From: Halichondria panicea
Lineage: Eukaryota; Porifera; Demospongiae; Suberitida; Halichondriidae
Direction: 5' to 3'
DNA: 64,000 bases
Assembly: GCF_963675165.1 (NCBI RefSeq)
Contig: NC_087380.1
Location: forward strand, 4,331,803-4,395,802
The notes below the pieces were generated by a model. It was not told where the DNA came from and did no database searches. It worked only from the letters and a program-made list of their open reading frames with translations. How positions within the stretch are numbered: position 1 is the first letter of the stretch; each line of letters starts with the position of its first letter. Position numbers and translations under genes: made by a program. Shown piece after piece: positions 23,530-60,500 of the stretch.

Positions 23530-23752
23530 AAACAAACAAACAGACCAACATACTACTATACCCGTGGCCGCCCACGCGCGCCTCGGGTAACAAACAAACC
23601 AACAGACTACTATACCCGTGGCCGCCCACGCGCCTCGGGTAACAAACAGACCAACATACTACTATACCCGTGGCCGCCCACGCGCGCCTCGGGTAACAAA
23701 CAAACCAAACGACTACTATAACCCGTGGCCGCCCACGCGCCTCGGGTTAATT
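23530..23752. repeat. GC-rich minisatellite, four units of about 55-60 bp
   Basis: Each unit reads approximately ACTACTATACCCGTGGCCGC followed by CCACGCG(CG)CCTCGGG and AACAAACA. The four copies differ in the CG/CGCG count. A single copy also occurs at 21529-21565 at the end of array unit 2. CCCG...CGGG ends could fold into a hairpin. The composition contrasts sharply with the AT-rich surroundings. Confidence 0.8.
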
Positions 23753-23942: not shown

Positions 23943-23987
23943 TAGCCTCGATCCCAGGCCACAATGGAAGGCCTGTGAAGGAGGCTA
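23943..23987. mobile_element. Mini foldback element of the TAGCCTCG family, 45 bp
   Basis: It starts TAGCCTCGATCCCAGGCC and ends AAGGAGGCTA. The flanks CAGAGAATA and CAGAGCAAT(A) look like a slightly diverged 9-bp target duplication. Same family as 33282, 33437 and 40344. Confidence 0.55.
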
Positions 23988-24174: not shown

Positions 24175-25690
24175 ACTAACATTGTAGTCAGAGTGCTTAT
24201 TGGCTGGAGTACGTATTGGTATACACATGAACTCCTGGTATACATAATTGCGAGTGCATAAATAGGAGTATCCGACACCCACGCACTGCAATAGCAAAAT
24301 AATGCACAAAGCTATGTTTTCTCATGGGAGCGTCATACTACGTAGCTATCATAACAATCGCCAGTACATGAATATACTTAGACACTAGTTGATAAGATCT
24401 ACATGGGAAGTACATGGGAAAAGTGCCTCAGAGCAGGTACATGTATACTATGGGACTTATAGTATACCTGCAAATTTACTTAGTATACCTAGTATTCCGT
24501 TGTCAAGTAATTGTATTGTAGTCAAGCGGTTTGCGCATGCGCACTAGTATCTAAATGAGTTAGACACTGTTTTGTCGGTGTCCATGTCCATGTGATTTAG
24601 AAGCCCTCAGCCACTTTAGTACCCTCGCTACGCTCGGGATACTAAATCAGTGCCTTTGGGCTTCTAAATCCCATAGACACCTCCAAACAGTGTCTAACTA
24701 TTATTTATAAAGTGAAAATCACCTGATATCAGGTGTGTTGTAATGAGTGTGTGGTTAATACTTACACATGGTTGTAGCTACTGTAGAAACCAATTACAAT
24801 AGTGCCATTTTTAAAATGTCAAGTATTCAGCCAGTTCCTAGATGTGGCCTCTCCCTGCAAAGATAGAACAGTTTAAACATGAGTCAAAATACATATATGT
24901 GAAATATTGCTAAACACAGGCAAACTCACTGCCAATCTTTATACGTAAAACCTGCTGGTTTTACTACTAAATGTAGCAGTTTGCTTGTTAAAGCCTAGCC
25001 TCGATCTCAGCCGCATTTTCTGAGGCCTTGTGAAGGAAGCTAGCTGAATCCGGCCGTGCCCAAAACATAAAAAGCCTGAGGTACTGTAAAAAGTCAAGTG
25101 CATGGGGCCACCTCTCTGATCCTGGAGCCACAGCCGATCTAGTCCAGGAAAAGTCAAAGCTTCCCCAGTTTCAGCTTTATCCATGCAGAAAGGGATCATA
25201 ATGTCACACAACACAATGGCATAAATAAACTGGATTGCTTTTTAGTAGAGACTACAACAAATATTGCCACTTGGGCTTCTTCTTGGTATAGTACTAGCTT
25301 GGTGGTGTTAATAATATTCTGCTCAACATAGTTCTGTATAATGCGCAAGCCACTTGTGGTTTGTGCTAATCAGACCTACCAGAGTTACATGTACCTCTAA
25401 ACAACAGTGTACACAACTACTATAAGTGTTTGTGATATCACCCTGAGAAAGTATGGAGTGGAATATGCGTGGGTGTCTGGACACTCGTATTCATGCACTC
25501 CTGACAATTGCATTTGACAATAGTTTAAACTACTACCTCATCTCTGACCTCATATTAGATAAGGCTACATGGATATACACTCGTTGCATGATCTATATTG
25601 CTACTCCAAGAGAAAGAAAGTTTTAGTCCATATATATATATATAGATTTAACGACTGGAATTAATTATAGCTAGAGTCTAACAAATTGTC
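24175..25690. other. Intergenic region with foldback DNA
   Basis: No gene supported. It holds an imperfect foldback at about 24559-24693 (AGTTAGACACTGTTTT at one end, AAACAGTGTCTAACT at the other, with an inner GATTTAGAAGCCC / GGGCTTCTAAATC pair). It also holds a degenerate TAGCCTCG element at 24996-25042 and, at 25634-25645, a TATATA run about 45 bp before the next start codon that could serve as a TATA element. Confidence 0.55.
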
Positions 25691-28600
25691 ATGATTGTGA
25701 GTGTTTTGCTTATTGTACTGGCTACTCTAGCTGGTTCAACCACCTCTGTACACTATCGCATAGTCCCTGTCAACGCCACTTCCTTGTGTAAGGGCTACCC
25801 CAATGGAACCTGCTTCACTCTAAAGCAACTTTCCTCCGAAATTAATGCTACTGGAAATAGAAACATTACGATAAGTTTCCTTCCCAGAGAGCACCTTCTC
25901 GACTGGAAAATGAGTTTTGTTACCAGTGAAATGAATACTATGTCAAAAACACACAATGGGTTAATAAATACTGTCACCCTTAATAGTGAACAACTGGACA
26001 ACACCTCCAGTAATCCTGTTAAAATCATGTGTACTCTTCCAAATGCTGGAATCTCTGCTGCAGGCTTACACACATTCACTGTACAAGGACTGATGATTTA
26101 CGGATGTAAGAGAGACACATATGGTGGGGCTATCTCTGTTACAGGAGGAAATGTGTTTATCACTGAGACTCACTTCATAAATAATCATGTGATGTCAGAA
26201 TATAATGAGGGATCAGGAGGCGCAATATACTTAAGCAATGCAAACGTTATGATATTGAACAGTGTTTTCACCAACAACACAGCTTTTGCTATGACCTTGA
26301 TTGGGAATGTTAACTCAATGTCATGTAAATTTAAACATTTTAGTGTGTTTGGTGGTGGGGCAATCAACCTACTGACTAGCAATGTTTTGATTCATGGTTG
26401 TGATTTTGATAGTAATAGAGCAAAATGTGGTGGTGCATTAATCATCAACAGTCTTGGATCACATACCAACATAAGCAACACAACATTCAGAGGAAATTAT
26501 GCCGAACAAGGAGGTGCCATTTACAACTACAATGTGAGAATACCCACTAACATTGTTGGCACTTCATTCATCAATAATAGTGCGAGTAGTGGAGGAGCTA
26601 TTTTTACTTTAGCACAGCTACAGAGTAAAGACTAGTCTCGCGAGCAGACTTGTCCTAGAGGGAACGTCTGGTAACTATTGCAGCAATTCCATGGCACTGA
26701 GGAATGTAGTCACATGCAAGATATTTGTTAATTAACCAAATTCACATGTAGACAAATATTTTCATTCGCAGCTAGCTAGCTCTTGCTTGGTCTGAGCTCC
26801 TTGTACCGAGTCAACACTAAAATTAGCCTTTAATTTGCTAGAGTCAATAATCCTTCTTTTCACGTTCATTTTATGCTATAATAGGAAAATATACGGGGTG
26901 TTACCTGCCCACTATGATGTGAACAAATCTGATTGGCGCTGCCAACATTCTGGCAGGGGTTCACAGAATTGCTGCAATAGTGACCAGACGTTCCCTCCCT
27001 CCCACATCTGCTCACGAGACTAAGTAAAGACAGCGTGTATGAGAATAATACAGCAAAACATGGAGGGGCGATGTATATCACTATATTCAGTGTAACAGAC
27101 ATTCAAGTGTCATTTTTCAACAGCACATTGTTCTGTAGCAACACCGCTGAATTTGGGGGAACCATCAAAATGATTTCTGGTACTATCCGTTTTCAGCCAT
27201 ATTCCGAAACATTTATTACTCAGAACAATGCTATTTATGGTGGTGGAATATACCTTGAGCAAAGCATTTTAGTCGGAACAAAATTGGAAATAAAACACAA
27301 CAGAGCAAACAATGCCGGAGGTGGAATCTATGCTTTCGCTAGTGTTATTGAAATTGTTGATTGTTATTGTTACAACAATCAGATTTGTATGACACACATT
27401 TCACACAACCAGGCAAATAATGGAGGTGGTGCTTACCTAACTGCTTCAAGTGTTCGACTATTACAAAGTTTAATAACTATTGAGAATAACGTTGCCAGTC
27501 AATATGGTGGAGGTATTTATCTAGAAGAAAACTCAAAGATGATTTCATATGCAGTAAACTTGAATGGTAGATCTACATTGCATTTCGTTTTAAATATCAC
27601 CAGTAACAAGGCTCTGAGAGGAGGAGGTGTGTACGTGTCTGACAGTACTAATGAGCTGATTTGTGAAGGCATTCATTCATTGCGTTCTTCGGAAGTAAAT
27701 CTCAGTTCAAAGCAATGTTTTTTTCAAAGCATCCTGTTTGTACCTCAGTCGAGTTACTTCCTCAGTATAACATTTTCTAATAACAGCGCAACTGAGACTG
27801 GCAGTGACATTTATGGTGGACTTCTGGACAGGTGTACTATCAGCCCTCTGGCTCAAATAGTTTCAGCAAATCACGAGTACAAAATTAATGGCATTTTATA
27901 CCTACAGGGTATTGGAGGATTTGATTGGGCTCAAACAAAAGTAGTCTCTCGAGTTCCATGCCTTGGAAACGTAACTCATGGAGTTGTTACCAATGTATCA
28001 GAATTTTATAACCACATCTCCTCAGACCCGGTTAGAACCTGTTTCTGTGTAAACAATGCTTTAAACTGTAGCTACATACATCCCACCATCTACAAAAAGA
28101 AAGGAATGAGATTCACACTGAATATTGTTGCAGTAGACCAGATTGGCATACCAGTAAATGCCAAACTCATTAGCTCACTCCACTCAGAGAATAAAGGAAT
28201 CGGGACCCGGAGACTCAAAGAAGGTCAACAGCATAGAGACATAGAGGGTCACTGCACAGAGCTCGAGTACAATGTTTTCTCGTATGAGAGTTCAGCTGTA
28301 TTAGAACTATATGCTGATGATCCTTGTGCAAATCAAGGGATATCCAAGAAAAATGTAAATATCACATTCATACTGTGTACATGTCCAATTGGATTGGAAG
28401 AAAAGGTTGAAGACCCTATTGATTGCTCATGTGTCTGTGCTACTAAATTAAAACTATTTATCAGCAACTGTTCACAAGAGAACGAAACTATTCAAATCAA
28501 TTCCAATGTGTGGATCGAGAGTATTAGCTGCTCTAATTCTACCACATACTTGGATGACACTAATTCCACCTTCTGTTATGTCACCCATGACTGCCCATTT

Positions 28601-30049
28601 GACTACTGCTTGCCAAAACCAGCCATCATCCGTCTGAATAATACTGATACACAGTGTGACTTTGACAGAACTGGAAGACTTTGTGGTGAATGTCCACAGG
28701 GACTCAGTTTAGTATTTGCCAGCTCAAGATGTCAACAATGCTCCAACTACTCCTTATTCCTGCTCTTGCCCTTTACTCTAGCTGGCATTGCATTGGTAGC
28801 ATTCATTATGCTACTCAATATGACAGTTGCAACAGGGACCATTCACGGGCTTATCTTTTATGCTAACGTTCTAGCAGCAAATCGTTCAATTTTTTTACCA
28901 TTCAACAAACCAAACTTTCTTACTGTCTTTATATCATGGTTGAATCTCGACTTAGGAATTGAGACTTGTTTTTATGATGGAATGAACTCGTACGAAAAAG
29001 TGTTGCTACAAATTGTTTTCCCAGCCTATTTGTTTTTTTTAATAATCGTTATCATGGTGTTGTGTAACTGCTTCCAAAGAATAGCACATCTGCTCAGCAA
29101 AAGGAACACCGAAGCTACACTCTATACTCTCACGTTACTTTCTTACTCTAAACTGGTTCGGATTATCATCTCAGCCCTCCAATTGAACTATTCCGAAGGC
29201 GAGCGCATATTTTGGCTATATGATGCATATGTACCATACTTCAGGGCTAGTCATGTCCCACGATTTCTAGTAGCTTTTTTCATTATCATTCTTGGCTCTA
29301 TCTACACCACATTGCTCCTTTTTGGTCAGTTGTTGCAATTTTTCTCTGAGCACCGAGTTATGAAATGGACAACTAACATTCACTACATTTATTTTATGAA
29401 AGCACATCATGCTCCTTTCTCAGACAAGCATCGCTATTGGGTGGGACTGTTGCTGCTTGCTAGGCTGGTTCACTACCTCATATCAGCTTTCTCTAATAAC
29501 TCTATCATTGTACTCTCGGTTTCAACGATGACGGTGTTGCTGCTATTTCATAAATTAGCATGCAAGCATATTTACAGTGCTTGGTCTGTTGACCTTTTGG
29601 AAATAGTTTTTATGCTCAATTTAACAATTCTTTCTACTTCAACCTTTTTCATTAGGGAGACGAGTCATTCTTCAGACAATCAAAAAGTGTTGGCCCTTGT
29701 GTCAATGTCAACATCGTTTATCGTTTTCCTAGGTATTGTACTCTACCATATGCTAGACACATGTGGAGTGAAGTCAAGCAAGCTATCTCAAGTAGTACTA
29801 GCAGTACTTCGAAAACGCCAACACTACCTGCCAATCCCAATCACAGAGATAGATGGAGATATAACAGATGAAAGTGACCCTGCTCATTATGTCAACCCAA
29901 TAATCAGATCTGCCATGCCTGCTGATCAGCTGAGAGAGCCAGCCCTTGATGTCCTGACTCCCGTGCAGCCAGAAGACTACAATACACCTGCTACTCCAAC
30001 ACTACGTAGAGAGAAGCTCACATTCTCTGAAATTGAAATCAGTTCCTAG
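25691..30049 (+). pseudogene. Beta-helix (Pmp-like GGA-repeat) multi-pass membrane protein, interrupted by a TIR element
   Basis: Intronless reading frame in two parts, 25691-26632 and 27032-30049, in the same phase once the 390-bp insertion (with one target copy) is discounted: about 1,319 codons. It begins with a signal peptide (MIVSVLLIVLATLAGSTTSV). Residues about 135-570 carry repeated GGAI/GGGI...FxNN motifs (for example SGGAIYLSNANVMILNSVF), the hallmark of right-handed beta-helix, Chlamydia-Pmp-type repeats, with many N-glycosylation sequons. A Cys-rich stretch follows (about 760-885, CGECPQGLSL...CQQC), then about eight hydrophobic helices (889-1235) and a cytoplasmic tail. The family is probably a cell-surface receptor or adhesin; the ligand is unknown. 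As it stands, TAG, the first codon of the element, stops translation after 314 residues. No other disabling change is seen, so the insertion looks recent and may be polymorphic. Confidence 0.8.
26633..27022. mobile_element. 390-bp TIR element (Mutator-like MITE) with 9-bp target duplication
   Basis: AGTAAAGAC occurs immediately before (26624-26632) and after (27023-27031). The termini are TAGTCTCGCGAGCAGA and, inverted, TAGTCTCGTGAGCAGA. The inverted similarity extends about 60 bp inward (GGGAACGTCTGG, CTATTGCAGCAATTC). The interior lacks a transposase. A 9-bp duplication is characteristic of Mutator-type transposases; assignment to that superfamily is an inference. Confidence 0.9.
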
Positions 30050-31824: not shown

Positions 31825-33235
31825 CAGTGGCGTAGGAAGCACGGGTGCTCAGGGTGCTGGAGCACCCCCTTATCTCAAGCTACCTTACCTACTTGTTCCA
31901 TGAAGTTCAGAACAGCTAGCTAGCTTGATATAGCAGCTAGCTAGCTAGCTAGAAGTCAAGCTAGTGGCTAGCTATACTAGCATAGTTACGTACACAGTAC
32001 AAAGGTCAGCTAGATGAACCACACGTAGATATCTCTTATAAAGAGAAAGCACATTGCGAATGCAACATTAACAAGCGCTAGCAAGTCTCCTCTCATTTTT
32101 GACATCAATGGTAAGCTTCCATGAACAGCTACTAAAGAGGGTAGCTAGACTATAGATCAAGTTTAATTGGATCCTAAAATAGACATGCTGTCTAACTGCC
32201 GAACGTTCGTTTTCCTCACTGCGAAGATTGAAACATTCCTCCGAAGTAGACTGGAAACCACGCCCCTTTCTTTAGGGAAAGAGACTGGCCAGGTGACTAT
32301 CAACGACTCGTCTTCATTGCGTACTGAATTTTGCGGAAGTGGTTCAGGGAAAAGGGTGTGGTCACCAGTGTTGCAGTTTAGTATACTTTGGCTAGATCTA
32401 CTGCTGTCAGTACTCTAGCAAGCTAGCTAGCTAGCTCAGCCACCTACCAAACTTCATTTCAATCACAAGTTAACTGCTGCAAAACTATGTCCAAGTCTGG
32501 AGCTAGCTGTCACCTGGATGTACCTAGTTCTTGTCCTGTCTGTGGCAATGATACCGCTGTAAAATAGAAACTCAAATGTTGCTGGCAATAGGGCAAAGCA
32601 AAGGGACTTTCCATAAACCAGTTGGCAGAGAGACAAATATATCTCTGCATCTCTGCTACTTCTGTCTGTTATTTTTGCAGTGGCCTTGTAGCTATCCAGG
32701 TTATAGCAACTTTAGAATTGCTTCATTGGAGAAGTACTGATAGACAACTTATATCCAAAAAGCTAGCTAAGTAGACATAAAATTTATACTGCAACTGTAC
32801 ATTAATACTCACATAAAATCAATTATAATAAAAATTTATGCTTAGTGTGCAATATTGTGGTTTAGATATCTCCCACGCATTCATGCACACACTACATTCC
32901 AAGCATTCCGTTGGGACGAGTAGTTGATAGTCACCTGGCCAGTCTCTTTCCCTAAAGAAAGGGGCGTGGTTTCCAGTCTACCTCCGAAGTACAATGACAC
33001 AATGCAATCTTTTTTTATTGGTATATTCATACCCACTTAGCAGATTCTAGTATATAGCAGAAAATTTAATCCAGGTAAACTCACGTAGAATAAATTTTGA
33101 TACTGATAATTTTATACCAAATTTGCTCAGAATTAATCTCCGGGAATGTAGAATGCCAAAATTTTCCGGGGACAAGCCCCCGGACCCCCAGATTTGTAAA
33201 GCACCCCCTTACAAAAACATCTTCCTACTCCTCTG
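31825..33235. mobile_element. Non-autonomous TIR element (hAT-like ends), 1.4 kb, 5-bp target duplication
   Basis: It starts CAGTGGCGTAGGAAG and ends CTTCCTACTCCTCTG (inverted). It is flanked by TGTAT on both sides (31820-31824, 33236-33240). Subterminal GGTGCTGGAGCACCCCCTTA and AAGCACCCCCTTAC are further related ends. An inner inverted repeat of about 70 bp (32243-32312 against 32915-32989, including AAACCACGCCCCTTTCTTTA) suggests a second element nested inside. No transposase frame is seen. Confidence 0.75.
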
Positions 33236-33281
33236 TGTATGACATTTCTCGAAGTGCTGAAATGTTTCTTTTATACATGCA

Positions 33282-33330
33282 TAGCCTCGAGACCAGGCCG
33301 ATTAAGTTAATCGGCCTGGATTCGAGGCTA
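33282..33330. mobile_element. Mini foldback element, 49 bp, with perfect 9-bp target duplication
   Basis: It starts TAGCCTCGAGACCAGGCCGA and ends GGCCTGGATTCGAGGCTA, so the element is little more than its two inverted ends. ATACATGCA flanks it on both sides (33273-33281, 33331-33339). Confidence 0.85.
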
Positions 33331-33436
33331 ATACATGCATGAACACTTTGCAAACTTGACACATTGAATGGCTGCTTTAGTGTCACATACATAACAGATA
33401 ACTAGCTATAATATAATTATTTTTCAATGCCAGCCT

Positions 33437-33531
33437 TAGCCTCGATCCCAGGCCGATCCGTCTCCAATTGAACGCTAGGTTGCTGACCTATAGCGTTCAA
33501 TTGGAGACGATTCGGCCTGGGATCGAGGCTA
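33437..33531. mobile_element. Mini foldback element, 95 bp, with perfect 9-bp target duplication
   Basis: It starts TAGCCTCGATCCCAGGCCGA and ends with the inverted copy. Near-perfect arms of about 45 bp (including GTCTCCAATTGAACGCTA) surround a loop of a few bases. TGCCAGCCT flanks both sides (33428-33436, 33532-33540). Confidence 0.88.
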
Positions 33532-33935
33532 TGCCAGCCTTAGCAGTTTTACATGATCTCACAAACCAATTAAGAGCTCTAATTATATCAGCTGTATTGT
33601 GGATATAAAGGACATGCACGGAGCAATTAAATTCATCACATTCGTAGATCAAGATATTTCTTTTTTCGAAAGTTTAATATATAGATGCATTTTAAGGGCA
33701 GAAGCTTAGCATGCACTAGCACTATCAAGGGCTTATTAATTCGGAGGTTCCACTGATTGTGTGGAGGAGTTTTGTGTGTTTCCTTTTAGCCCACGCTCAT
33801 TAGCTAGAGGTTAGCTTCCTTATACCATTAATTATGCAGCCATATAAATGCATTATAGACTATAAGTAGATCATCTTTCAGTAATTTACCTCTGTAAATC
33901 TGGCTACAATCTATAATAGTATATCTCTATGTACC

Positions 33936-36900
33936 ATGAATCAAGCTAGACCTATTGCAGCAGTTGTGCTTTTAACCCTTCATCTCAGCAGTATTAGAGC
34001 AGAGTTACCAAGCTCCTGTCTTACTGCAATCACTTCATCCAACTCTGTGGATTGCTGTCGAATGCAACCATTCCTGTATGTTCCCTATTCTGTTACTAGT
34101 AATTTTAATGGAAATTTGAATGCATGTGTGCAAAAAGATCTACATATGTACAATGTTTAGTGTTGTGCATGTGGCCCATCAAAAACTGGCTAGTTTACTG
34201 CCAAAATTAATTAATTGATAACAAGTTGTTTGCAACCCTCTGCTTGCAACCATGCATAGCTCTGTCCTGTTATATATTTAATTTTAACCACTTATTTGAT
34301 CATCTGAGTACATTATTATGCTATATATGCAGGGAGATTTCATTCACCTTGAACTTTGAATGTAATGTATCTCAATACCTTGACCAAGGAATAAGGCTTG
34401 AAATACGCCGGTCAGCTGGGAACTCTAATTGGCAGCCAGTTCGATTTTATGCAGTGAATACAAACGAGACTGCTGGGTCAGTTGTGAGACGTATCGAAAA
34501 TAACATGGTTGTTGCAGATGCCTTGCTATACTCTAGCAATTTTCCTTTAGAAGTGATAGCGGGTAATCAGTCTGTGTCCATTCGGGAATATATTTGTGAT
34601 TCAGCATTTACTGAGGAGAATGTGAGTGTGAGGTGGCTGCAGAGATACAGTGAGGTTCCTGTTGTAGAAGAAGCAGCATGGTCACTGGACGATGTAGTAC
34701 TTACTGTGTGGAATGGTGACTGTCGGCGTGAGGTCCTTAGAAACAGTTTCAATCAAAATAATCTGTGAGTGAGTTTCTATTAATATTAATGGTAGCTATA
34801 TATAATGTCGATCTATTTCAAATGCAGGTCTGCAGTTTATGATGTTCATGCTGGTATTGTAGAAATACCAACATGTGATGTAACTGGAAATAGCCAGCTC
34901 TATTTCAGTGTAATCGAAGAACACCCAACTACTTCACGACGATCACTAACTCTTTTAGATGTCTATGTTATGGGCGAGTGTCCAAGTGTTGACTTAGTTA
35001 CTGGTGAGGGCTCAAGTACAGCACAGAATGTCAAAAGGAGAGTACTTTTTGTTGCATGTAGGTGTGTGTGATACCAGTGGTTGTGATGTGGATACTACTG
35101 TTTGCTCCTTGGGCAGTATCAATTGCACTGGCTGCAATATTGGGTATCAGTTACTTGCCAAAACCACAATAGGGGCATGCCATGGTGAGTTATACCATTC
35201 ATTTGTCTTCTGTTTTTGTATGCAAGTAATTGTTTATACTGATTCACCACAAACCATCTCTGTTAGAAATATCATAGTAGTGTGCTTTCTCTTACCGTTA
35301 ATGTGAATTAGGAGTGTTTACCCACGCTGTTTTGAAAGAGTACACGTGTATACATGCATGCACCATATCACATATACACCTGCTTAAACAGGAATGTTTA
35401 AAGACATCCAAAGTAATATAATCCCCCTTGGGGATACATTAACGTGTCTTGTCATTAAATGTTTATTTATGGTAGCTTATTGTGAAGAGCTCCCCAATAT
35501 AACCCGTCGAAGTATCACATACAATAGTGATTATTCTATGGGTAACATACACCTGTACCGTTAATGGATACAATTTGGTTGGAAATGAGACTCGGACATG
35601 TGAGGTTCCAGGTGGATGGTCAGGATCAGAACCTGTTTGTGAACTAACTATTCTATTCTTTTCTGGAAGACCCTAATTTTTGAGTATTGCTTTGATAGTA
35701 CAATAATTACAATAGGGATTACGATAATATAGTTGCAGTTGATTGTGGTGAGCCTTCGTTTATATCTAATGGGACAAAATCAGAGGCACATAGCAGTACA
35801 TTGCTCGGAACCATTGTAACCTATAGCTGCAATAAGAGGTTATGAATTGATTGGTCTGCGATAATCTCTTGTCAAACAAAATAATAGAAACCAGAGCAGT
35901 CCACTATGCAGCTACCTACTATGTTAAACTTTCATCAATGTAATCTATAGATCTCAGATAGCTATAGTTAATGACCGTTGCGAGTGCTCTATACAAGAAA
36001 CGGTAGAGTACGAGCGTAAATGCTGGTTTGTATATATCCTATATACTACTCATGCAGCTTTTGTCTCACTCTTGCAGCTATAGCTCTCTAGTGTAGAGTT
36101 AACTGCTAAATAGAACAGTAATTCCTTCGAACAGATTTTACCACCCCAGAGATACCTAGCTACTTAGAGCTGTCGTGTAGCAAACTGAAAGCTCTATCGC
36201 TCTGCAGACCAGAATAGAAGAGGCCACGCTGCATGCATAGCCAATCTGGGATTAAATCTTGAGTCGAAAATGCAACTTGGACAACTGCAAACTTTTAATT
36301 AGTGTTGTATACCCAATCACTATGCTATACCCACTACTGTGCTATAAAGCCTATAATAATATTATGTGTAGGCGTCATTATTTTAGCAATGTGGTTGGCT
36401 TCATATACACTACAGCGTAAGCAAACAGTTTTGTGGTATAGCACTGTGGTTGTCATAATTATAGCAACGTGGTTACCACAGCTGTATACTACTTTAAGAG
36501 GTGAAATAATTATTTTCGCGGGTAATTAATTTCTGCTATTTCTGCAAATTTGAACTCGCAGATAATTGGAAAATGCAATAAAACCACTTGCAAGCAATTA
36601 ATTAGAAACGCTATGATTAATTTCACAACTTGAGCAGCTTTTAGCAGAATTTAATGCCAGCAAAATGAACAAATCTACCAGTCCTGTGAAAATAATTATT
36701 ATATCACACTTAGCTAGCACCAACAAATGTTTTAATGTGCATGAGGTCGAGGTTACGTAATGCACTCGCTTGCGTATTAAAATACGTTGGCTAGCGATTT
36801 GTATTACAAAAGAAGCTGAAAACCCTGTTCAATCACATTTTGTTGCTTACTTCATTAGGTGTTGTATTGGATCCAGTTTTTGATCGAAATGTGAGCTACT

Positions 36901-39586
36901 ATTGTCACGTTTGGTTAGTACATAGATTTGAGTTCTTTCAGGTTACTGAGGACAACTATGCGGACATAGCGGCTGAGATATCTTCGTTTTCCACAGATTC
37001 TCTTGACAATGCCACACTTCAAACAACTGAACTTTTGAAGAATATTTCGAAAGTGTTCAATGATATAGCAGAGCTTGTCAAGTTACTCCCCTCATCTAGT
37101 GATATCCATCCCTTAGTACGTCAAATTTCGGCACACTAAATACTGTTAAAATTTACTGTACATGCAGGTGGTTGAAAGGATGGCTTCAACACTGAACTCT
37201 CTGATACAATGGAATCACAGATTACTTGAAGTGGAATCCACCTCCATGTAAAGTTAACATCTTACTTTTAAATGTGAATTTTAACCAGTCTTTAAAAGTA
37301 TAGCATTCTTCAATCATACGAGCTTGTTGCTTCTCTCTACGCTCAGCAACGCAACTATACTCTAATTTTGGATGAAGTCACTATTGTCACTGAAGTGGTG
37401 AGTGTATTTGCAGTCTTAATTGCAATATTTATTTTGTATATAGAGGGAAACAAATGAGTTTAGGAGGACTGGAAGCATGTTTGATTTCACAAACAGCAGT
37501 AAGCAGCTATTAAATATTACACTCGTATAGTTCTTATAATTATCGATTTTAGCTGACGTCACGTCTACAATCTCTCTACCCCGTCAATTGTTCGATAACA
37601 TACCTAGTAGTTGGCCAGCTGTTGGTATTTTGTATACACTCTATGAGAACCCCACCTTATTTCCTATACGTAACGATGACAATGAAAACTCAAGTACATT
37701 GAGGAGTACTGTTGCCACTCCTGTGCTTGCGGCAACTGTTGGCTCAAGTCTAAACTTTGCGGAAATTCACCCTCCAATAGTGATTACCTTAATCCCAAAA
37801 GAACAATCTGAAAATATCACAGTAAGTCTGCAGTCAATTGCTTATATACACATAGAATTATATGATTCATTGCATACACTCAGATAAGGGAAGGCTCAGA
37901 GAAATGTGTTTCCTGGGACTTTAGCTCCAACCGCTGGGTAACCGACGGCTGTGTTACTGTCAGAAATGAGACAACTAATGTAGTTGAATGTCAATGCACT
38001 CACCTCACAAACTTCGCTGTTCTTATTGTGAGTGCATTACAGTAATGCTGCTTCACCATCAGATTGATTGTATATAATTATTGGTGCAGGATATTTGTTC
38101 GAGAGCTCAAGACTGCGAAAATGATCCATTGGCAGACATCATTCTCTCTGCAACTACCTACGCTGGTGTAGTGCTGTCATGCATTGGAATCATCTTCACT
38201 GTTATCACTCTTGTTGCATTCAAGTCAGTCCACATAAGTATGGATTTTCATTGTACAAAGTCACGCTTACTCGAAGATAGCTTAAATTATTGCGTGCAAT
38301 GTGTTTATAATATAATTTTGACTATTTTTCAGGGATCTTCGGTCACGGGACAACACCAAGCACCACATACAGCTCTGTATTGCCATTTTTTGCCTCCTGG
38401 TAGTATTCGTTGCTGGCATTGATCAAACTAAACCTTATGCTGGCTGTGTGGTGGTTTCTGTTCTGATCCATTACTTCTCCCTGGTGGCTGTCATGTGGAT
38501 GGGAGCAGAGGCCGTGCTAATCTTCAAGAAGATTGTAATTATATTCGGGGAAATCACCACGTCGTACATCATAGTTGTCTCTCTCATCTGTTGGTGTGAG
38601 TGTAACCCCTCATTTCTACGATATAAGATACATATAAGTATCGTTCTGGTTGTGTAAACATGTTGGTCCTTTATTCATGCACGCAGTGATTCCTCTGATT
38701 CCTGTGCTGCTTGTGCTCATCATTGACATGGCTAATGGAACTGATACGAAATCAGATCTAATTGTCAACAGATACGAACATGGAGTGGAGAGTGTTACTG
38801 GGTTGTAAGTTGTGATCTATTGAGGACAGAGCTTGCATTTAATTACAATATAATATTATACATTATACGCTTAATGCAAGAAAATAAAGATGCTATTGTT
38901 GTAAGCATCTGTATTTATCTCTGCATCCTTGCATTTGTTTTTGTTACAGCTGTTTCCTGAAAGATAGTGGTGTGTTTTTTGGAGCATTTCTTGCACCAAT
39001 TCTTATGGTTTTGCTTTTAAATGTGGTTATTTTTATCTGGGTCACTGTGATTGTGGTCAGGAGTACGAAAGACAAATTGAAAAGGACTAATGAGGACTTA
39101 AGCTCACGAGTCGTGATTAGAATAATTATCAGCCTTCTTGGAATCACATCTTTATTTGGGATTACCTGGCTGTTTGCTGCATTGACGATCACAATTTCCG
39201 GTAACAATGTGTTGAGAACTATTGTGCAAGCTCTTTTTGTTGTATCTGGAACATTTCAAGGTTTTTTTCTGTTTCTTTTTTTCTGTGTGCTTGATCAGAA
39301 AGCTCGAGGAGCTTGGAGAGAGGCGTTTGTTTCCTGCATGCAAATAACTAAGCAGAGCTACAGACGAGACTCAAGTAGCTTGATTGGCGTATCTTCAAAG
39401 AAGACGGACACTTTTACCTTTGATCAAAATTCGAACTATTCTACCGATATGAAGAAGGAAGATATGAAGAATAATTTTTCTAAGCTCAAATATGATTCTG
39501 TGAATGGTAATGCTTCGACTGACCTGAATGAGTATCACAAAACTAGAGTGATAATTACGGTTGTGGAAGATCATGGAACTGCATGA
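33936..39586 (+). CDS. Adhesion G-protein-coupled receptor (GAIN/GPS + 7TM)
   Basis: Fourteen phase-consistent exons: 33936-34147, 34333-34764, 34828-35003, 35062-35184, 36859-37115, 37168-37247, 37304-37397, 37444-37498, 37553-37821, 37884-38027, 38090-38223, 38333-38595, 38687-38804, 38950-39586; 997 residues. A signal peptide starts MNQARPIAAVVLLTLHLSS. The N-terminal ectodomain is unrecognised; then comes a Cys-rich EGF-like exon (CDTSGCDVDTTVC...NCTGC) and a GAIN region. The GPS motif has the expected residues (CVSWDF...W...GC...CQCTHLTNFAVL), with the predicted autoproteolysis at HL/T near residue 607. Seven hydrophobic helices follow (about 630-890), including the family-B2 segments HHIQLCIAIFCLLVVFVAGI and FGITWLFAALTI. 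The tail is Ser/Thr-rich. Such receptors couple adhesion to G-protein signalling. Two CCP-like exons in the intron 35185-36858 are decayed and excluded. Confidence 0.88.
35476..35645 (+). pseudogene. Decayed CCP/sushi exon inside the adhesion GPCR gene
   Basis: After an AG acceptor in phase 1 it reads AYCEELPNITRRSITYNSDY, and later, in another frame, VTYTCTVNGYNLVGNETRTC and GGWSGSEPVC, a complete CCP pattern. A single-base deletion at the GGG near 35541 breaks the frame and no GT donor follows the last cysteine. The exon is phase 1-1, so skipping leaves the receptor frame intact. Confidence 0.75.
35739..35880 (+). pseudogene. Second decayed CCP/sushi exon of the adhesion GPCR
   Basis: It reads VDCGEPSFISNGTKSEAHSS then GTIVTYSCNK, followed by a frame change to GYELIGLR and another to ISCQT. 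At least two frame breaks and a stop are visible and no clear donor is found. Also phase 1 at its acceptor. Confidence 0.7.
36500..36690. repeat. Second copy of the dispersed repeat seen at 978-1188
   Basis: It shares words such as ACTCGCAGATAATTGGAAAA, TTAGCAGAATTT, CCAGCAAA and AACAAATCTACC in the same order and spacing. It lies in the intron preceding the adhesion GPCR exon at 36859. Confidence 0.6.
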
Positions 39587-40136
39587 ATAAATGGAAATGA
39601 AATTGATGTTATGCCTGTGCTCTGTTAGTTAGTAGATTAGTATAGACTATCCCATTCCCTTATGAGTTCAAGGCTATTATGTGTCATGTTATGTTTCTGT
39701 TAGATCTCTACATGTTTAAATTGGCACTGTACAAAAAATAATGAAGCGAGTCCCTACCTATTTTTGTGTTGACTCAGCAGGTATTTTATGCACCGTCGCG
39801 TCAATGATCTAGTATGCTATTCATTTTCTTATATCACAGGATATAGCTAGATCTAGGCATTATTACTACTGTGGGGTATAGTTGGGCGTGGCCCGACCGT
39901 CCTGACAGGAGGTCGGGTTGCAAGCCTATCTGGGATTTGTTCTAAGCGCCCTATCAGATTGCAGCATTTTTCACGTGATTGGTTACACTTCTGTTTGCAT
40001 CCAGAGGAAGTACAACATCCGCGTGTCTTTAACACACACCTCTACTATCTATGCTAAAACATAACCCCCCCCCTGAAAGGCTGAGGGGTTAATCCCCTAG
40101 GCGGGGATGCCCATTCAGATGAACAATGCTCTTGAA

Positions 40137-40450
40137 CAGTGGCGTAGCCAGGATTTTGGGAAGGGCAGGGCTCAAATTATTTGAGCAGGGCCAGAGCGTA
40201 ACACCTAAAAAAAAGTCATAACTTTTCCTCACTGAGCAGTCAGCATGCATTAGTTGGCCCTGCCCACATTTCCATTCAATGACATCATTCTAGTAACTGC
40301 ACGCAGAATACATGGACAGATCGCGGTAATTCAAGTGTTGATATAGCCTCGATTCCAGGCCTTGAGAAGGAGGCTAGTGTTGATAAAGCACAAAAGGGGG
40401 GGGGGGGGGGGGCTCTAGCCCCTCAGCCCCCCCCCCTGCCTACGCCACTG
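40137..40450. mobile_element. TIR element, 314 bp, hAT-like ends, 5-bp target duplication
   Basis: The ends CAGTGGCGTAGCCAGG and GCCTACGCCACTG are inverted copies, flanked by TTGAA at 40132-40136 and 40451-40455. The same CAGTGGCGTAG terminus bounds the 1.4-kb element at 31825. A poly-G tract lies near the right end. It contains the 33-bp foldback at 40344. Confidence 0.78.
40344..40376. mobile_element. 33-bp foldback element with perfect 9-bp target duplication, nested
   Basis: It starts TAGCCTCGATTCCAGGCC and ends AGGAGGCTA. GTGTTGATA flanks both sides (40335-40343, 40377-40385). It is the shortest member seen, with almost nothing but its termini. Confidence 0.82.
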
Positions 40451-41820: not shown

Positions 41821-41878
41821 TAGACTCGCCAGCCAGCCCTTCCTAGATCCTCGGGGGTAGGGCTGGCTGGCAAGTCTA
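41821..41878. mobile_element. 58-bp foldback element, TAGACTCG ends, 9-bp target duplication (8/9)
   Basis: It starts TAGACTCGCCAGCCAGCCC and ends GGGCTGGCTGGCAAGTCTA. It is flanked by CTCTCTGAG (41812-41820) and CTCTCTGAT (41879-41887). The interior GGCTGGCTGG arms differ from the TAGCCTCG group, but termini and target length agree. Confidence 0.78.
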
Positions 41879-45500: not shown

Positions 45501-48500
45501 TCAAACTGCAATAAATTCTTTGCAGTGGACACTCTCATTTTAACATGTAAATAACCACAATATCTATTCTTTAGTTTCCCCTGGTGACCTATCTGTGAAT
45601 GCTACACCCTTCAACGTGGTAAATTTCGATAAGGATGTCAATCTCACTTGCTCTGCTCGTGGTGGACCCAATAATGTGTACCAATGGCTGAGAAATGGAA
45701 TGAACACTACTGTAGGGAGTCAACCCACACTATCTCTCTCTCTAGTTGATGCTAGTGATGGAGGGGAGTACACCTGTGTTGTCAGCAACGCTGCCGGCAT
45801 TAGCAACGCTAGTCTTACACTGTACATTCGACCATACATTGTAACTCATCCACAACAAATACTAGCAACTGTCCCAGAATCAGTTTCATTTACTTGCAAG
45901 GCTTTGGGATTCCCTGCACTTAACTATCGATGGGACAAGATTGGTGATCCCGGGTTTAAACGCTTTACACAAAATCTCACCTTCAATCCTGTCAATTTTG
46001 GTAATGAAGGATTATACCAATGTGTTGTTTCAATCATGGTGGACATGATCAATTACACTGCAAAGTCTAATCAAGGAGAATTGATATGTGAGTGTTATGT
46101 AACTGTTTGTGAAGCTTACAAAGTACTGTAGGTTTGGAATCCTTCAGTTTTGTGCATGTTGTTTTTGATAATGCATGGTGTACTTAGTGTATGGATTCTG
46201 TTTCTTTAGAATGTTATAGTCTTGATTGATAATTATGTCTATAATTATAGTGACTCCTGGTGAAGTAATGATTGACGCAAGTCCATCTAATGTTGGTGTG
46301 CTGAATGAAAATGTCACACTAAATTGCTCTGCAAGTGGTGGAACTGATAACCTCCAGTGGCAAAGAAACGGAATCAATCTTCCTGGAGAAATGCAGTCTA
46401 CACTACTTCTCACTTCAGTTAATGCTAGTGATGGAGGAGAGTACACTTGTGTTGTCGGTAATGCAGCTGGTAATGGCAGTACCAATTTCACTCTCTACAT
46501 TCATCCATATTTTGTGACTAATCCACAACGTCAGCTACTTCGAACTGTGGCTAGCAGTGCAACATTCACTTGTGAAGCTTCTGCGTTCCCTGCACCTGAC
46601 TATCGTTGGGACAAAATTGGAGATGTGGGGTTCGATAATCTTGACCGCTTTAGACAAAACTTCTCCTTTAATCCTATTGCTTTTGGCAATGAAGGCAACT
46701 ACGTATGTGTTGCTTCAATCATTGTGGACAATATCAACTACACGGCAGAATCTAAACCAGGAGAGCTCATTTGTAAGTTCAATAGCATTTTAGCTATGAA
46801 CTTTTAAGAGTATACATAAATGCATCCATTTAATTGCAGTATCACCTGAGACTAGTGTGTCTGTCACACCTAGTATGTCTAGAACAGTTCAAAGAGATAC
46901 TCAAACGTTCACCTGCTCTGCCATGGGTGGTCCTGGAAACATGTTCTCATGGAGGAGACTGTACGATAACGAAATTGTGGGGGACATGTCTAATCTAACT
47001 GTGAATGTGAGTGGAGCCACAGACGGTGGGCAGTACAAGTGTGAAGTCACCAACATAGCAGGCAGTGATTCTGATAATACTACTGTATACGGTGAGTGTT
47101 AAATGAAACGTTTCACTTATATAGGTATGGTCTATGTTTTTAACTGTTCGTCCATCTACAGTTGGTCCGATCATTGACACTCCCCCTTTATCTAAGAATG
47201 TGAGCATCTCTGAATCATCCACTTTCACCTGTTCGGCCAGTGGATTTCCAGTACCTACCATCATCTGGGTCCACAACGGAACACAGGTGAGCTAACTATA
47301 CATCATCAATTTGTCTTGCATGGTTGCGTGATTCTTCAGAATCGGGATGATGAGAATCGCACTACTGTGTTATGTACCATGGGAGACAGATCTGTGACCA
47401 GCACCCTCACCATCAACATGGCTATGGTTAATGACTCTGGGGAGTACGTCTGCAATGCTAGTAGTCCAAACTATGACACTGTGTCAACGGACCCTGTCAT
47501 TTTATTGGTACAAGGTAACCCACCCAATGTTTATCAGTGCAAGTGTTTCACAACTATATTCACAACAGTTCCCCCTGGACTGAACTGAGTAACCATCTAG
47601 TCATGAATCTGTTCTCTGTATCAAATGTTGTGACTATACTTTATATGTGAGAATCCTCAGGCCTGTGAATTTGATTGCTTAAGGATGAGGCCAAACTGTT
47701 TTGAATGATTGCGAGAGGAATTCTATAGATAGTAAATGCATGCTTCCTTAAGGTATATAAAAAATGTTGTTTATCTTTTGGTGTCAGTGCCTGTTCAAGG
47801 AAGTATTCAATACTACAGATGTTAGGTTATGCTCTAAATTCACAGTTTATGTTTGTATACACATTCAATTTCAGCAACTCCCGAAAGACCACAGAATGTG
47901 ACAGCTGTAGAAGTGACAACAAATAGTGTGATATTGGAGTGGGTGGAGCCTCATGACAATAATGCCCCCATCCGTGATTACAAAGTCTCCTACACCAGAC
48001 CATCTTTTCTTGGAGGGACTGCCATGACTATCAACAGCACAGTGGAGACTGTAAACATCACTGGACTACACCCTGGAGCCGCTTACGTCTTCAAAGTGGT
48101 TGCTTTCAATGACATCGGGGAAAGTCCATCTGGTAACGTCATGGTCACTACTGTGAAAACAGGTATGCCATCTTACTTATAAGCAACAAGATACTTCAAC
48201 GCACTGCAGATAGATCTATTGTAACCTAGCTGTCAAGTTACATCTAGCATTACGTTCACAGTCCCAACAAACCCTCCTGAGAATGTAATGATCACTGTGC
48301 TATCATTCACTGAGATCCAAGTGAACTGGACTGAAGTTCCCATGGTGCATCGAAATGGAATAATTACCACATATGAAGTGATGTACGAACCACTGATGAC
48401 GTTTGATATACTCACTGCAGCCAGAGTGAACACTACAAATGTTTCTACTGTTCTTACTGGACTGGAAGAGAATTTAGAGTACAATGTTTCCGTGAGAGCT

Positions 48501-57500: not shown

Positions 57501-60500
57501 CTTTCAACAACAAGAGTGCCCCAAAAATACCACTCTTGTCTATTGTCCTCATGTTAGGTCCTGGTCAAATCGGACTATCATGGCTGCTGTTTTAACCCTT
57601 TCTTGCATGTGGATGCTCTGCCTGACCAGCATCCTAAAGACTACCACCTACACTTGACAGCGCGGGGGATCCATAGGCAGGGTGTCATACAAGGGTGGGG
57701 GGAAAGGGGAGATTTCCCCCTAAAATTTGCATTCAGGTACTAGTTGGGGTACGTACATACTGGCAATTTTACATACTAACAAGGTATTGAAATAACAGTT
57801 GACCTTTTTTTAGCAACATTTTCTAGTTATTTTTTCTTATTTCCCCCTCTACTTCAAAATCCTGTATGACACCCTGAATTAGGGATCCCAGGGTGCCACG
57901 GATCCCCCTTTCAGTCTACATATGTAGCTATTATGCATGGCTTTACTGTAGCCTCGATCCCAGGCCGCACTTCCCACTTCACTTAGGGAAGTAGGCCTGG
58001 TATCGACTGCTTGCGCATGCGCTAATATCCCCCCGGTATCTGGGGGCTTTGGATAACATTGTATATGCTCAGTAAAACTATGATATATCACAACAAACGA
58101 AAGTGGATTGAAGGAAGTAGATAGACAGTTCTATTGAAGGTTTCTAGCCCATAAAAAATTTTTTGTCACGAAGAACAAATTCTTTACTGTATAACGCAGA
58201 TATGTTACAAGATTCTATATCTGTGTTATACAGTAAAGAATTTGTTCTTCGTGACAAAAAAATTTTTAAGAGGCATTTGCTGTAGATCAATTATTGAGCA
58301 TGTTTCATGTATAGGGATGTTTACAAGTCTTCATACGTTTTATTTTACAGCTAGGGCTTACACTTTTAGTTCATGCGTACGATGACATTAAATTATATAT
58401 CGGTAATACTTGAAATTTAAAGATGCTGCCAAACATACTTTGTAGTTTATTCTAGAGGTAAACATTTTTAGAATGCATAATTATTTGGCTCCAAACAAAT
58501 GCCCTCTTAATGCAGCTCCTGCCAGTCCTCCTCAGAATGTGATGACTACTGTGTTATCTTCCACTGAGATTCTGGTCAATTGGACTGAAGTTCCTGAGAT
58601 AGACCAGAATGGATTGATCGTTACATATGAAGTAATGTATGACCCGCTAATGACGTTCAATGGGATGCTCAGTAGAATCACAGTCAACACAACAAATTTG
58701 TCCATCACTCTCAACAACCTACAAGAGTACGTAGAGTATAACATCTCAGTGAGAGCGTACACCAATGTGGGACCTGGACCTTACAGTGTGGGGATTATCA
58801 ATAGGACACTTGAGAATGGTGAGTTCATTAGTGTAACTATGATAAGGTGATTATGATAATATTCCATATACGTAGCTCCTTCTGGTTCACCAACAATTGA
58901 TAATGTTATGTCACTGTCACCCACGGAGATCCAAGTTACATGGATTGCAATTCCTGAAATAGAACAGAATGGAGTCATCACTCGTTATGAAGTGTTGTAC
59001 AGGAGTACTTTAGATTTCACTATCGGAAGTGTTTCCACTATGGATGGAGATACATTCACTGCAAACATTACCGAGCTGGAAGAGTCCGTTGTGTACAATA
59101 TAACTGTGAGAGCTTACACCGTGGTTGGACCCGGACCCTTCAGTGAAGTAGCCATGGAAAGGACAGGAGGGGCAGGTGAGTGTCGCCATTGAGTGTAGTT
59201 AAGAAATATTAATGGTAAGATGTAATGATTTTGTAACATTCTACAGCTCCTGCTAGTCCACCTCAGAATGTGACGGCCACTGTGTTGTCCTCTACTGAGA
59301 TTCAAGTGAACTGGACTGAAGTTGCTGAGATAGACCAGAGTGGAATTATCACTCAATACGAAGTCATGTATGAGCCACTGATGACATTTGGTGTGCTCAA
59401 TACAGCAACAATAAGAATGATGAACTTGTTTACTGTTCTCTTTGGGCTGGAAGAGTATGTGGAGTACAACATCTCAGTGAGAGCTTACACTAATGACGGA
59501 GCTGGACCCTACAGTGTGGGTGTTGTCAGGAGAACATTTGAGGATGGTAGGTTAACAGTCTAACTAACACTTGTACTATTATTGCCTGTTTCCTCCTGTC
59601 TAACTATGCAGTGCCAAGTTCTCCACCTAATGATGTCAATACCATTTCTGTATCCTCCACTGTGATCGGAGTGACATGGGAAGAAGTTTCAGGAATTGAC
59701 CAGAACGGAAACATCACTATGTATGAAGTGATGTACAACGGAGAGTTTGATCTCATGAATCAAAGTAACTTCGCTGATGGAAACATACAAAATTTCACTA
59801 TCACTGGATTAGACGAGTTTTCTGACTACAATATCTCAGTGAGAGCTTACACCAGTGTGGGACCTGGTCCTTACAGTCGAGCAGAGATGGAAATGACAAA
59901 GGAGGACGGTGAGGTTTATTTATTTTAATCACTTGTGTGAATTATGTTAAGTTTTGCTGTGTACAGTTCCAACAAGTCCAACTCAGAATGTGACAGCTTC
60001 TGTGCTGTCTTCCACTGAAATCCAAGTGAACTGGACAGAAATTCCTGAAATAGAACAGAATGGAATCATCATTGAATACGAAGTCATGTATGAACCACAA
60101 ATGACCTTTAATGACATGCTTACTACAACAGCAGTCAACACTACAAACATGTTCGTAACTCTGACTGGTCTGCAAGAGTATGTGGTGTACAACATCTCGG
60201 TGAGAGCTTACACCAATGTTGGACCAGGACCTTTCAGTGTAGAGATTGATAGGGAAACTCTGGAAGACGGTTAGATAGATAGTGTAAACCAATTGATTAT
60301 ATTCATTTCCACTCTACAGTGCCTGGCTCTTCTCCCAGGAACCTCCAAGTGATAGCAACAGGACCTACCTCTCTCAATGTTTCATGGGAGCCACCAGTAG
60401 AGATGGACATCAATGGTGTTCTCACCAACTACACAATCGAATACTACATAACTAAAGAGGAAAACAGTCCTCATGACGTTGTGGTGGTCTCTAGTGCAAC

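Follow-up and report, generated by a model that had tools for sequence, protein, structure and literature searches.

A 64,000-nucleotide stretch of the Halichondria panicea genome (contig NC_087380.1, positions 4,331,803 to 4,395,802, here called the window) holds foldback elements as short as 33 bp with 9-bp target-site duplications (TSDs) at their borders, which raises the question of whether such minute units were inserted as they stand or are the remains of something longer. Our answer is that they are probably interior-deleted relics of a Mutator-like element (MULE) family and of its longer non-autonomous derivatives, the latter measuring about 390 to 1105 bp where read. A first-pass annotation of the window had listed three main elements (49, 95 and 33 bp) whose termini are TAGCCTCG and whose 9-bp duplications are perfect, a fourth with a duplication matching in 8/9 bases, and three older copies. 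The first four were all found with the duplications described (Table 1). As for the older copies, those at 23943 (45 bp) and 24996 (47 bp) are relics of mini-elements, whereas the one at 57949 is part of a longer element; two elements beyond that list were found at 26633-27022 and 32247-32980. The window was also scanned independently of the TAG motif, for structures of 25-400 bp in which a 10-bp terminal inverted repeat (TIR) with at most one mismatch was bordered by identical direct repeats of k bases. With k = 9 this gave four structures, three of them being TAGNCTCG elements (26633, 33282 and 33437), and with k = 4-8 or 10-12 it gave zero TAGNCTCG elements. The TIR of the 33-bp copy is too uneven for this filter, and that copy appears in a looser listing beside unrelated candidates.

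To determine how regular the duplications are, the assembly (131,455,214 bases in 39 contigs) was searched for TAGCCTCG-N(15-45)-CGAGGCTA, which occurred at 1013 places, with 0 for the backwards control. That figure is not a number of insertions, because some places represent a single insertion copied inside a larger repeat; for the 50-bp class in the first sample all flanks were nearly alike (CATCGTTCGCGCTC/CTCGCGCTCATGCC, with few base changes), corresponding to one insertion within a repeat. We scored 112 loci, dropped 8 that had no end pair and merged the remaining 104 by like flanks into 76 sites. The samples were not random and comprised 40 listed TAGCCTCG-N(15-45)-CGAGGCTA places (all in the first 3.3 Mb of contig C1), 36 from another genome listing, 20 of the 26 places of a 47-bp core, 5 of the 6 sites of another listing and 11 asymmetric places, with L037 (47-bp core) and L035 (the sixth site of the six-site listing) counted within the first sample. 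Elements of up to 232 bp were included; the window copies stand outside the 76 sites, and two asymmetric places on the minus strand, L101 (33 bp, 9/9) and L146 (10-bp repeat), were skipped and stand outside the 112 loci.

An exact 9-bp repeat flanked the element at 48 of the 76 distinct sites and an exact 10-bp repeat at one, with no exact repeat of any other length from 4 to 12 bp. Every one of the 48 was different, and counting six sites that matched in 8/9 bases, at least eight of the nine positions agreed at 54 sites. When left and right flanks of different sites were compared, 9/9 matches were seen in only 3 of 5700 pairs and 8/9 matches in none, so that the excess of 9-bp flanking repeats over random expectation, on which the first-pass annotation had staked its reading, was clear. 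Elements with MULE ends were thus inserted with a duplication of 9 bp, rarely 10 bp, which lies within the 8-11 bp (usually 9) typical of MULEs. Among the 48 perfect duplications the raw counts were 20 for G at position 1, 20 for T at position 3, 19 for A at position 7 and 19 for C at position 9, which may reflect a weak and roughly symmetric target preference.

Two empty sites define the borders. At L107 a 51-bp element lies inside a 572-bp element, as CAGTCA-GTAGCAGGC-(51 bp)-GTAGCAGGC-CTAATTG, with the insertion point uninterrupted in 13 other 572-type copies read. For the 572-bp-type copy at L116 there is a paralogous empty site 7.3 kb away with a single CTGGATATC and no element, its sequence agreeing with the joined flanks at 118 of 138 aligned columns, with a 4-base gap located 2 bases outside CTGGATATC. 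Both cases place the element borders at TAG and CTA, as had been anticipated.

The annotation had inferred a Mutator-type transposase from the length of the duplications, and an element with matching ends that carries such a frame was now found. The MULE domain PF10551 occurred at 31 places in the assembly; the loci of 17 were fetched, together with flanks only for three more (C10, C8 and C6:4323049), and among the 17 L049 alone led to an element with these TIRs. This element (C1:11418385-11426235) spans 7.85 kb with the 9-bp TSD CATTTGCGA on either side. A 464-aa frame within it (C1:11423725-11425116) matches the ALS2CR8, MULE and ZSWIM RNaseH-like models, the family-level matches being PF10551 (E 9e-10) and PF21056 (8.2e-9) in one frame and SWIM (4.2e-5) in another. 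The pieces of its TIRs agree to 95% over a length of 63 bp, giving it the terminal repeats expected of a MULE, as do the TIRs of the 734-bp element in the window. The right terminus (TAGCCTCGATTCGTCTCCAATTGAACGCTAGGTCGC...) equals the arm of the 95-bp family minus 11 bases, and the left terminus (TAAGCCTCGATCC) is followed by a nested 801-bp TAGACTCG element with a 9-bp duplication of its own (CCTCGATCC), after which the sequence resumes with ...CCCAGGCTGATCCGTCTCCAATTGAACGCTAGGTCGCC; the arm of the 95-bp window element is similar to this left TIR. The MULE domain thus lies inside an element with the same ends, in one copy only and with a slightly damaged left end, and its ends, 9-bp duplication and MULE frame together give the Mutator-type assignment direct evidence. 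A relative on contig C6 has a TAGCCTCG terminus and the same TIR (89% over 64 bp), flanked by AAAGGCAGG and located about 5 kb from transposase pieces; its second end was not found. On these grounds the family may be filed as MULE, in a search that covered MULE transposases only. An OTU-type cysteine protease frame is also found inside the C1 element, downstream of the transposase.

The 33-bp element could be traced to a probable parent. It corresponds to 18 bases from the start and 20 from the end of a 572-bp element, which overlap in the 5-bp repeat AGGCC, with 539 bp missing; judged by this alignment, the form consists of the two ends of the 572-bp element without its middle. The claim that the perfect duplication proves insertion of the 33-bp copy as a unit is not supported, as a duplication shows only that something with those ends was inserted. 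Four other derivatives were compared, and three of the junctions share 0, 1 and 3 bases, with that of L103 leaving 6 bases unexplained. The right end GGCCTTGAGAAGGAGGCTA occurred exactly at 36 places, all of which were read: 14 ultra-short (33-63 bp), 21 long and 1 unclassed (L098). The ultra-short places amount to 13 sites, L147 and L148 being one, and carry 12 different sequences, with sizes of 33 (twice, in the window and at L101), 37, 41, 42, 45, 46, 47, 48, 49, 52, 52 and 63 bp. Ten of the 13 have a perfect 9-bp repeat and L146 by eye a 10-bp repeat; a flanking repeat is absent at L147/148 (3/9) and L151 (6/9). All five long places fetched in full were 569-577 bp with perfect TSDs. In the first batch, 14 long places followed the parent for as far as they were read, L107 falling slightly short of this; of the 21, six were read over just 119-131 bp of parent sequence. 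No sizes between 63 bp and the long forms were seen among the GGCCTTGAGAAGGAGGCTA places.

The 572-bp (5/5), 390-bp and 734-bp types are short and transposase-free, with TIRs, TSDs and many dispersed copies, and are as such miniature inverted-repeat transposable elements (MITEs). Amplification in a short form is supported at about 570 bp. The finding of 12 sequences at 13 short sites points to interior loss, even though for the 33-47 bp forms as such unit movement and recurrent deletion both fit.

A reason for relics of recurrent size was found in the anatomy of the long elements. Starting from the outside, their ends comprise an outer box (TAGCCTCGAnnCCAGGCCG), then a stuffer particular to each family, then an inner box in inverted orientation ((C)GGCCTGGTA); this arrangement is present at one or both ends, as seen at seven loci and at the left end of the C1 element; a box match at L145 was spurious. 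Such ends measure 37-39 bp in the types of L093 (572-bp), L044, L094, L119 and L156, 54 bp at window position 57949, and 62-63 bp in the 1105-bp element of L156 and in the C6 element. The 572-bp element has the box/stuffer/box arrangement at its left end only. Since the inner box is inverted, an end of this kind forms a hairpin, and the left inner box and the right outer box stand as direct repeats. The 576-bp element of L156 (TSD CCTCTGGAC) and its L094 relative carry an 8-bp direct repeat, CGGCCTGG, within GATTCAAGG at the left and GATTCCAGG at the right, and deletion across CGGCCTGG predicts TAGCCTCGATTCAAGGCCGATTAAAATACGGCCTGGAATCGAGGCTA, which is the reverse complement of a 47-mer found identical at seven sites. 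These seven copies have seven different duplications, six of 9 bp and one of 10 bp, and were considered as proof of amplification of the short unit; we rejected them as such because the repeat in the parent would yield exactly that product. Six sites share a second 47-mer without any difference, and three of them have perfect 9-bp duplications; the loci available yielded no long parent of this one with both outer boxes. Perfect 9- or 10-bp duplications flank the 47-bp core at 15 of the 21 places read (26 listed).

Long parents are plentiful. Long ends with the stuffer of the 47-bp core occurred at 436 places at up to one mismatch, with two expected per element, and the inner box of the MULE's own family at 702 places at up to three mismatches, with 1 for the control. 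At least 8 close inverted pairs were seen among 100 of 649 arm places listed (all exact and on C1), a lower bound as arms with a mismatch fall outside that listing. Interior loss could therefore account for the relics, which is not to say that it is proven. In four of the listed C1 pairs the inner boxes lie 1199-1211 bp apart (e.g. 13999314-14000546, 14190009-14191229 and 14513136-14514368), which suggests that the MULE's own family includes non-autonomous elements of about 1.3 kb as a class. L155 and L157 were considered as long 734-type elements, and a partner end with matching duplication was not found for either. Finally, the two arms agree in 23/24 copies at a C/T site; conversion from arm to arm need not be invoked, as matched TIRs in the parents suffice.

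Changes in length could furthermore be seen in place. L066 and L072 are copies of one insertion with near-identical flanks, and measure 147 and 232 bp, differing by whole hairpin pieces; at L061, L070 and L090, as well as at L072, one and a half hairpins lie within a single pair of duplications. Both the L066/L072 pair and the compound copies imply that length changes after insertion, presumably by slippage or similar.

Taken together, the junctions, the anatomy of the parents and the changes in place make interior loss the most likely origin of the short elements. The interior would be lost between the box repeats through slipped synthesis, through annealing repair or through gap repair that is interrupted, either in a resident copy or during repair of the donor gap. 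Loss from box to box would leave hairpins of 36-55 bp that retain a single stuffer or lack it, and other junctions would leave two-stuffer palindromes (58-103 bp); the target duplication would persist as a trace of the longer element first inserted. Several observations weigh against this explanation. Flanks match in seven or fewer of nine bases at 22 of the 76 sites, and no single site was seen to hold a long element in one copy and an ultra-short element in a different copy, the L072/L066 pair showing only 232 and 147 bp, whichever came first. The MULE copy on C1 is imperfect, with a left end (TAAGCC) split by the nested 801-bp element and a right TIR short of 11 bases; at the other MULE loci checked, the transposase was not found enclosed by paired TAG ends that have a matching duplication, and the closer protein relatives on C28 and C8 had no TIR match in the flanks read, apart from one bare TAGCCTCG (L163:821). 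Repeated identical 47-mers, seven of one sequence and six of the other, would also be expected if short units transposed.

That last possibility, in which a MULE transposase would bind both boxes of a 33-103 bp hairpin and move the unit, is the strongest of the rivals and yet unlikely in our view. Besides the identical 47-mers at their different duplications, including the three perfect ones of the second sequence, it is favored by perfect duplications even at 33-37 bp. However, the first 47-mer is what the 8-bp direct repeat of an abundant parent should give, the short sites of the 572-bp family have nearly as many sequences as sites, and a single insertion is seen at two lengths. Synapsis of ends less than 50 bp apart would also require an unusual complex. 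It is hence doubtful that the 36-47 bp units, which hold little beyond two back-to-back putative transposase binding boxes, were transposed as such; if they were, they would probably rank with the shortest mobile DNA units so far described. Much less probable is that another superfamily with similar duplications, such as Merlin, hAT or P, moves these elements and that the MULE ends are coincidental. hAT elements can begin with TAG, a single locus out of the 17 fetched for PF10551 gave an element that has these ends and a TSD, and the search was confined to MULE transposases; against this, an exact 8-bp repeat was present at 0 of the 76 sites and an exact 9-bp repeat at 48, a MULE frame lies between matching TIRs within a 9-bp duplication, and the second relative has the same TIR on the expected side. 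Near-perfect palindromes with arms in such close agreement might even be taken for hairpin motifs or structured RNA genes under selection, an origin that is refuted by the differing 9-bp duplications, the empty sites and the long parents, whose matched TIRs already explain the agreement of the arms. We thus retain interior loss from longer MULE-family insertions as the most likely explanation for the ultra-short elements.

Other repeats were evaluated as the source of the ends and rejected. The MULE family at L043 has a TIR of its own (CGCTGTGACTATTCTT) with a 9-bp TSD and merely carries a 36-bp mini-element inside, and the large repeat of L046/47/48/55 has termini without TAG. The former is a separate MULE family with TIR CGCTGTGACTATTCTT (L041-L044), in which positions 908-4589 of L043 are bordered by the 9-bp TSD TAAACTTTA. 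The same 36-bp TAGCC mini-element is found in L041, L043 and L044, and in L042 it is interrupted by another insertion. At 4400-5400 of L042, by eye, a foldback with TACGGTGGCCC ends and an apparent 6-bp repeat ATCCCA lies within a TAGCC mini-element and itself holds another TAGCC element, giving three nested layers. At positions 1763-1864 of L044 (C17:4149000-4155500), mini-elements of 57 and 36 bp adjoin each other, and the 9-bp duplication GCAACTTCC is present three times, as though one mini-element had inserted into the duplication made by the other, earlier one.

The elements of the window are collected in Table 1. Relatives of the 390-bp element are dispersed, with 80-92% identity (40 scored of 106 candidates), and dispersed relatives of the 734-bp element are likewise present. 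The stretch at 57949 matches the 572-bp-type element at 78% over 134 bp, and no right end was found downstream of it.

Table 1. Foldback elements, longer non-autonomous elements and relics in the window, with their flanking repeats.
Feature	Position in window	Strand	Flanking repeat
49-bp foldback element	33282..33330	.	TSD ATACATGCA at 33273-33281 and 33331-33339
95-bp foldback element	33437..33531	.	TSD TGCCAGCCT at 33428-33436 and 33532-33540
33-bp element	40344..40376	+	TSD GTGTTGATA at 40335-40343 and 40377-40385
58-bp foldback, TAGACTCG ends	41821..41878	.	Flanks CTCTCTGAG / CTCTCTGAT, 8/9
390-bp non-autonomous element, TAGTCTCG ends	26633..27022	+	TSD AGTAAAGAC at 26624-26632 and 27023-27031
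734-bp non-autonomous element, TAGACTGG ends, 66-bp TIRs	32247..32980	+	TSD CCTCCGAAG at 32238-32246 and 32981-32989
45-bp relic, asymmetric right end (GGAGGCTA)	23943..23987	+	Decayed repeat at best, CAGAGAATA / CAGAGCAATA (by eye)
47-bp relic	24996..25042	+	Not visible
5' part of longer 572-bp-type element (outer box, stuffer, inner box)	57949..58125	+	

The 390-bp element lies between frames of 314 aa (25691-26635) and 1004 aa (27035-30049), both with Chlam_PMP repeat matches. The two frames share the same reading frame, the element and its duplication together make 399 bases, and the first codon of the element, TAG, is the stop of the upstream frame, so that it looks like an insertion into a single long frame. 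Splicing of the element as an introner-like insertion was considered and set aside, as the AG and GT of the duplication by eye overlap by one base. Elsewhere in the window, a frame of 821 aa at 3531-5996 has matches to NACHT and to leucine-rich repeats, a short tandem array with a unit of about 53 bp (GCCCACGCGCCTCGGGTAACAAAC...) is located at 23570-23740, and fibronectin III frames lie at 56371-57084 and 62338-63105. Near-identical 350-bp stretches at 48336-48685 and 52161-52510, 3825 bp apart, probably belong to a tandemly duplicated gene region.

The relics illustrate the extent to which a transposon can shrink while retaining the mark of its insertion, and hairpin ends with direct repeats to the opposite end provide a concrete reason why end-only relics should be of recurrent size. 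They are probably easily missed in repeat annotation and would scatter putative transposase-binding boxes across the genome; in placozoans, a Mutator TIR motif has been noted at chromatin-loop promoters (PMC12221973). With narrow terms, no description of MULE relics of 33-60 bp was found in the titles and opening lines of abstracts from the open-licence literature, which we do not put forward as a claim to priority. As far as can be told, novelty lies in the family itself, in its ends built of TAG box, stuffer and box, and in how prevalent relics shorter than 60 bp are.

With regards to known systems, the Foldback (FB) elements of Drosophila consist mostly of inverted repeat, with long arms of tandem repeats, and are linked to a MULE-type transposase. 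The 95-bp family resembles them in being mostly inverted repeat, two arms around a short centre, but its arms are built from boxes and stuffer without tandem repeats, although an arm is repeated in some of the compound copies. Earlier work has described duplications of 8-11 bp for MULEs, as well as MULE-MITEs and Mutator/foldback families that have 9-bp duplications (PMC6446971, PMC4486113 and PMC3169594). The present family shares with MULEs the 9-bp (occasionally 10-bp) duplication, the TIRs and the MULE transposase and SWIM frames, and differs in that its TIRs are short and composite with a TAG start, and in the OTU protease frame inside the element. The Tm1 Mutator/Foldback family of root-knot nematodes likewise has mostly 9-bp duplications and variable composite TIRs, with MITE-like and transposase-bearing groups, but the elements in the available portion of its description are of 1080 and 2593 bp, with none of 33-100 bp (PMC3169594). 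The MuTAnT MULE-MITEs of Medicago, similarly described as many small non-autonomous copies with 9-bp duplications and a putative autonomous MULE, range from about 200 bp to more than 1.6 kb and target TA microsatellites (PMC4486113), whereas the family studied here extends down to 33 bp and shows only a weak target preference.

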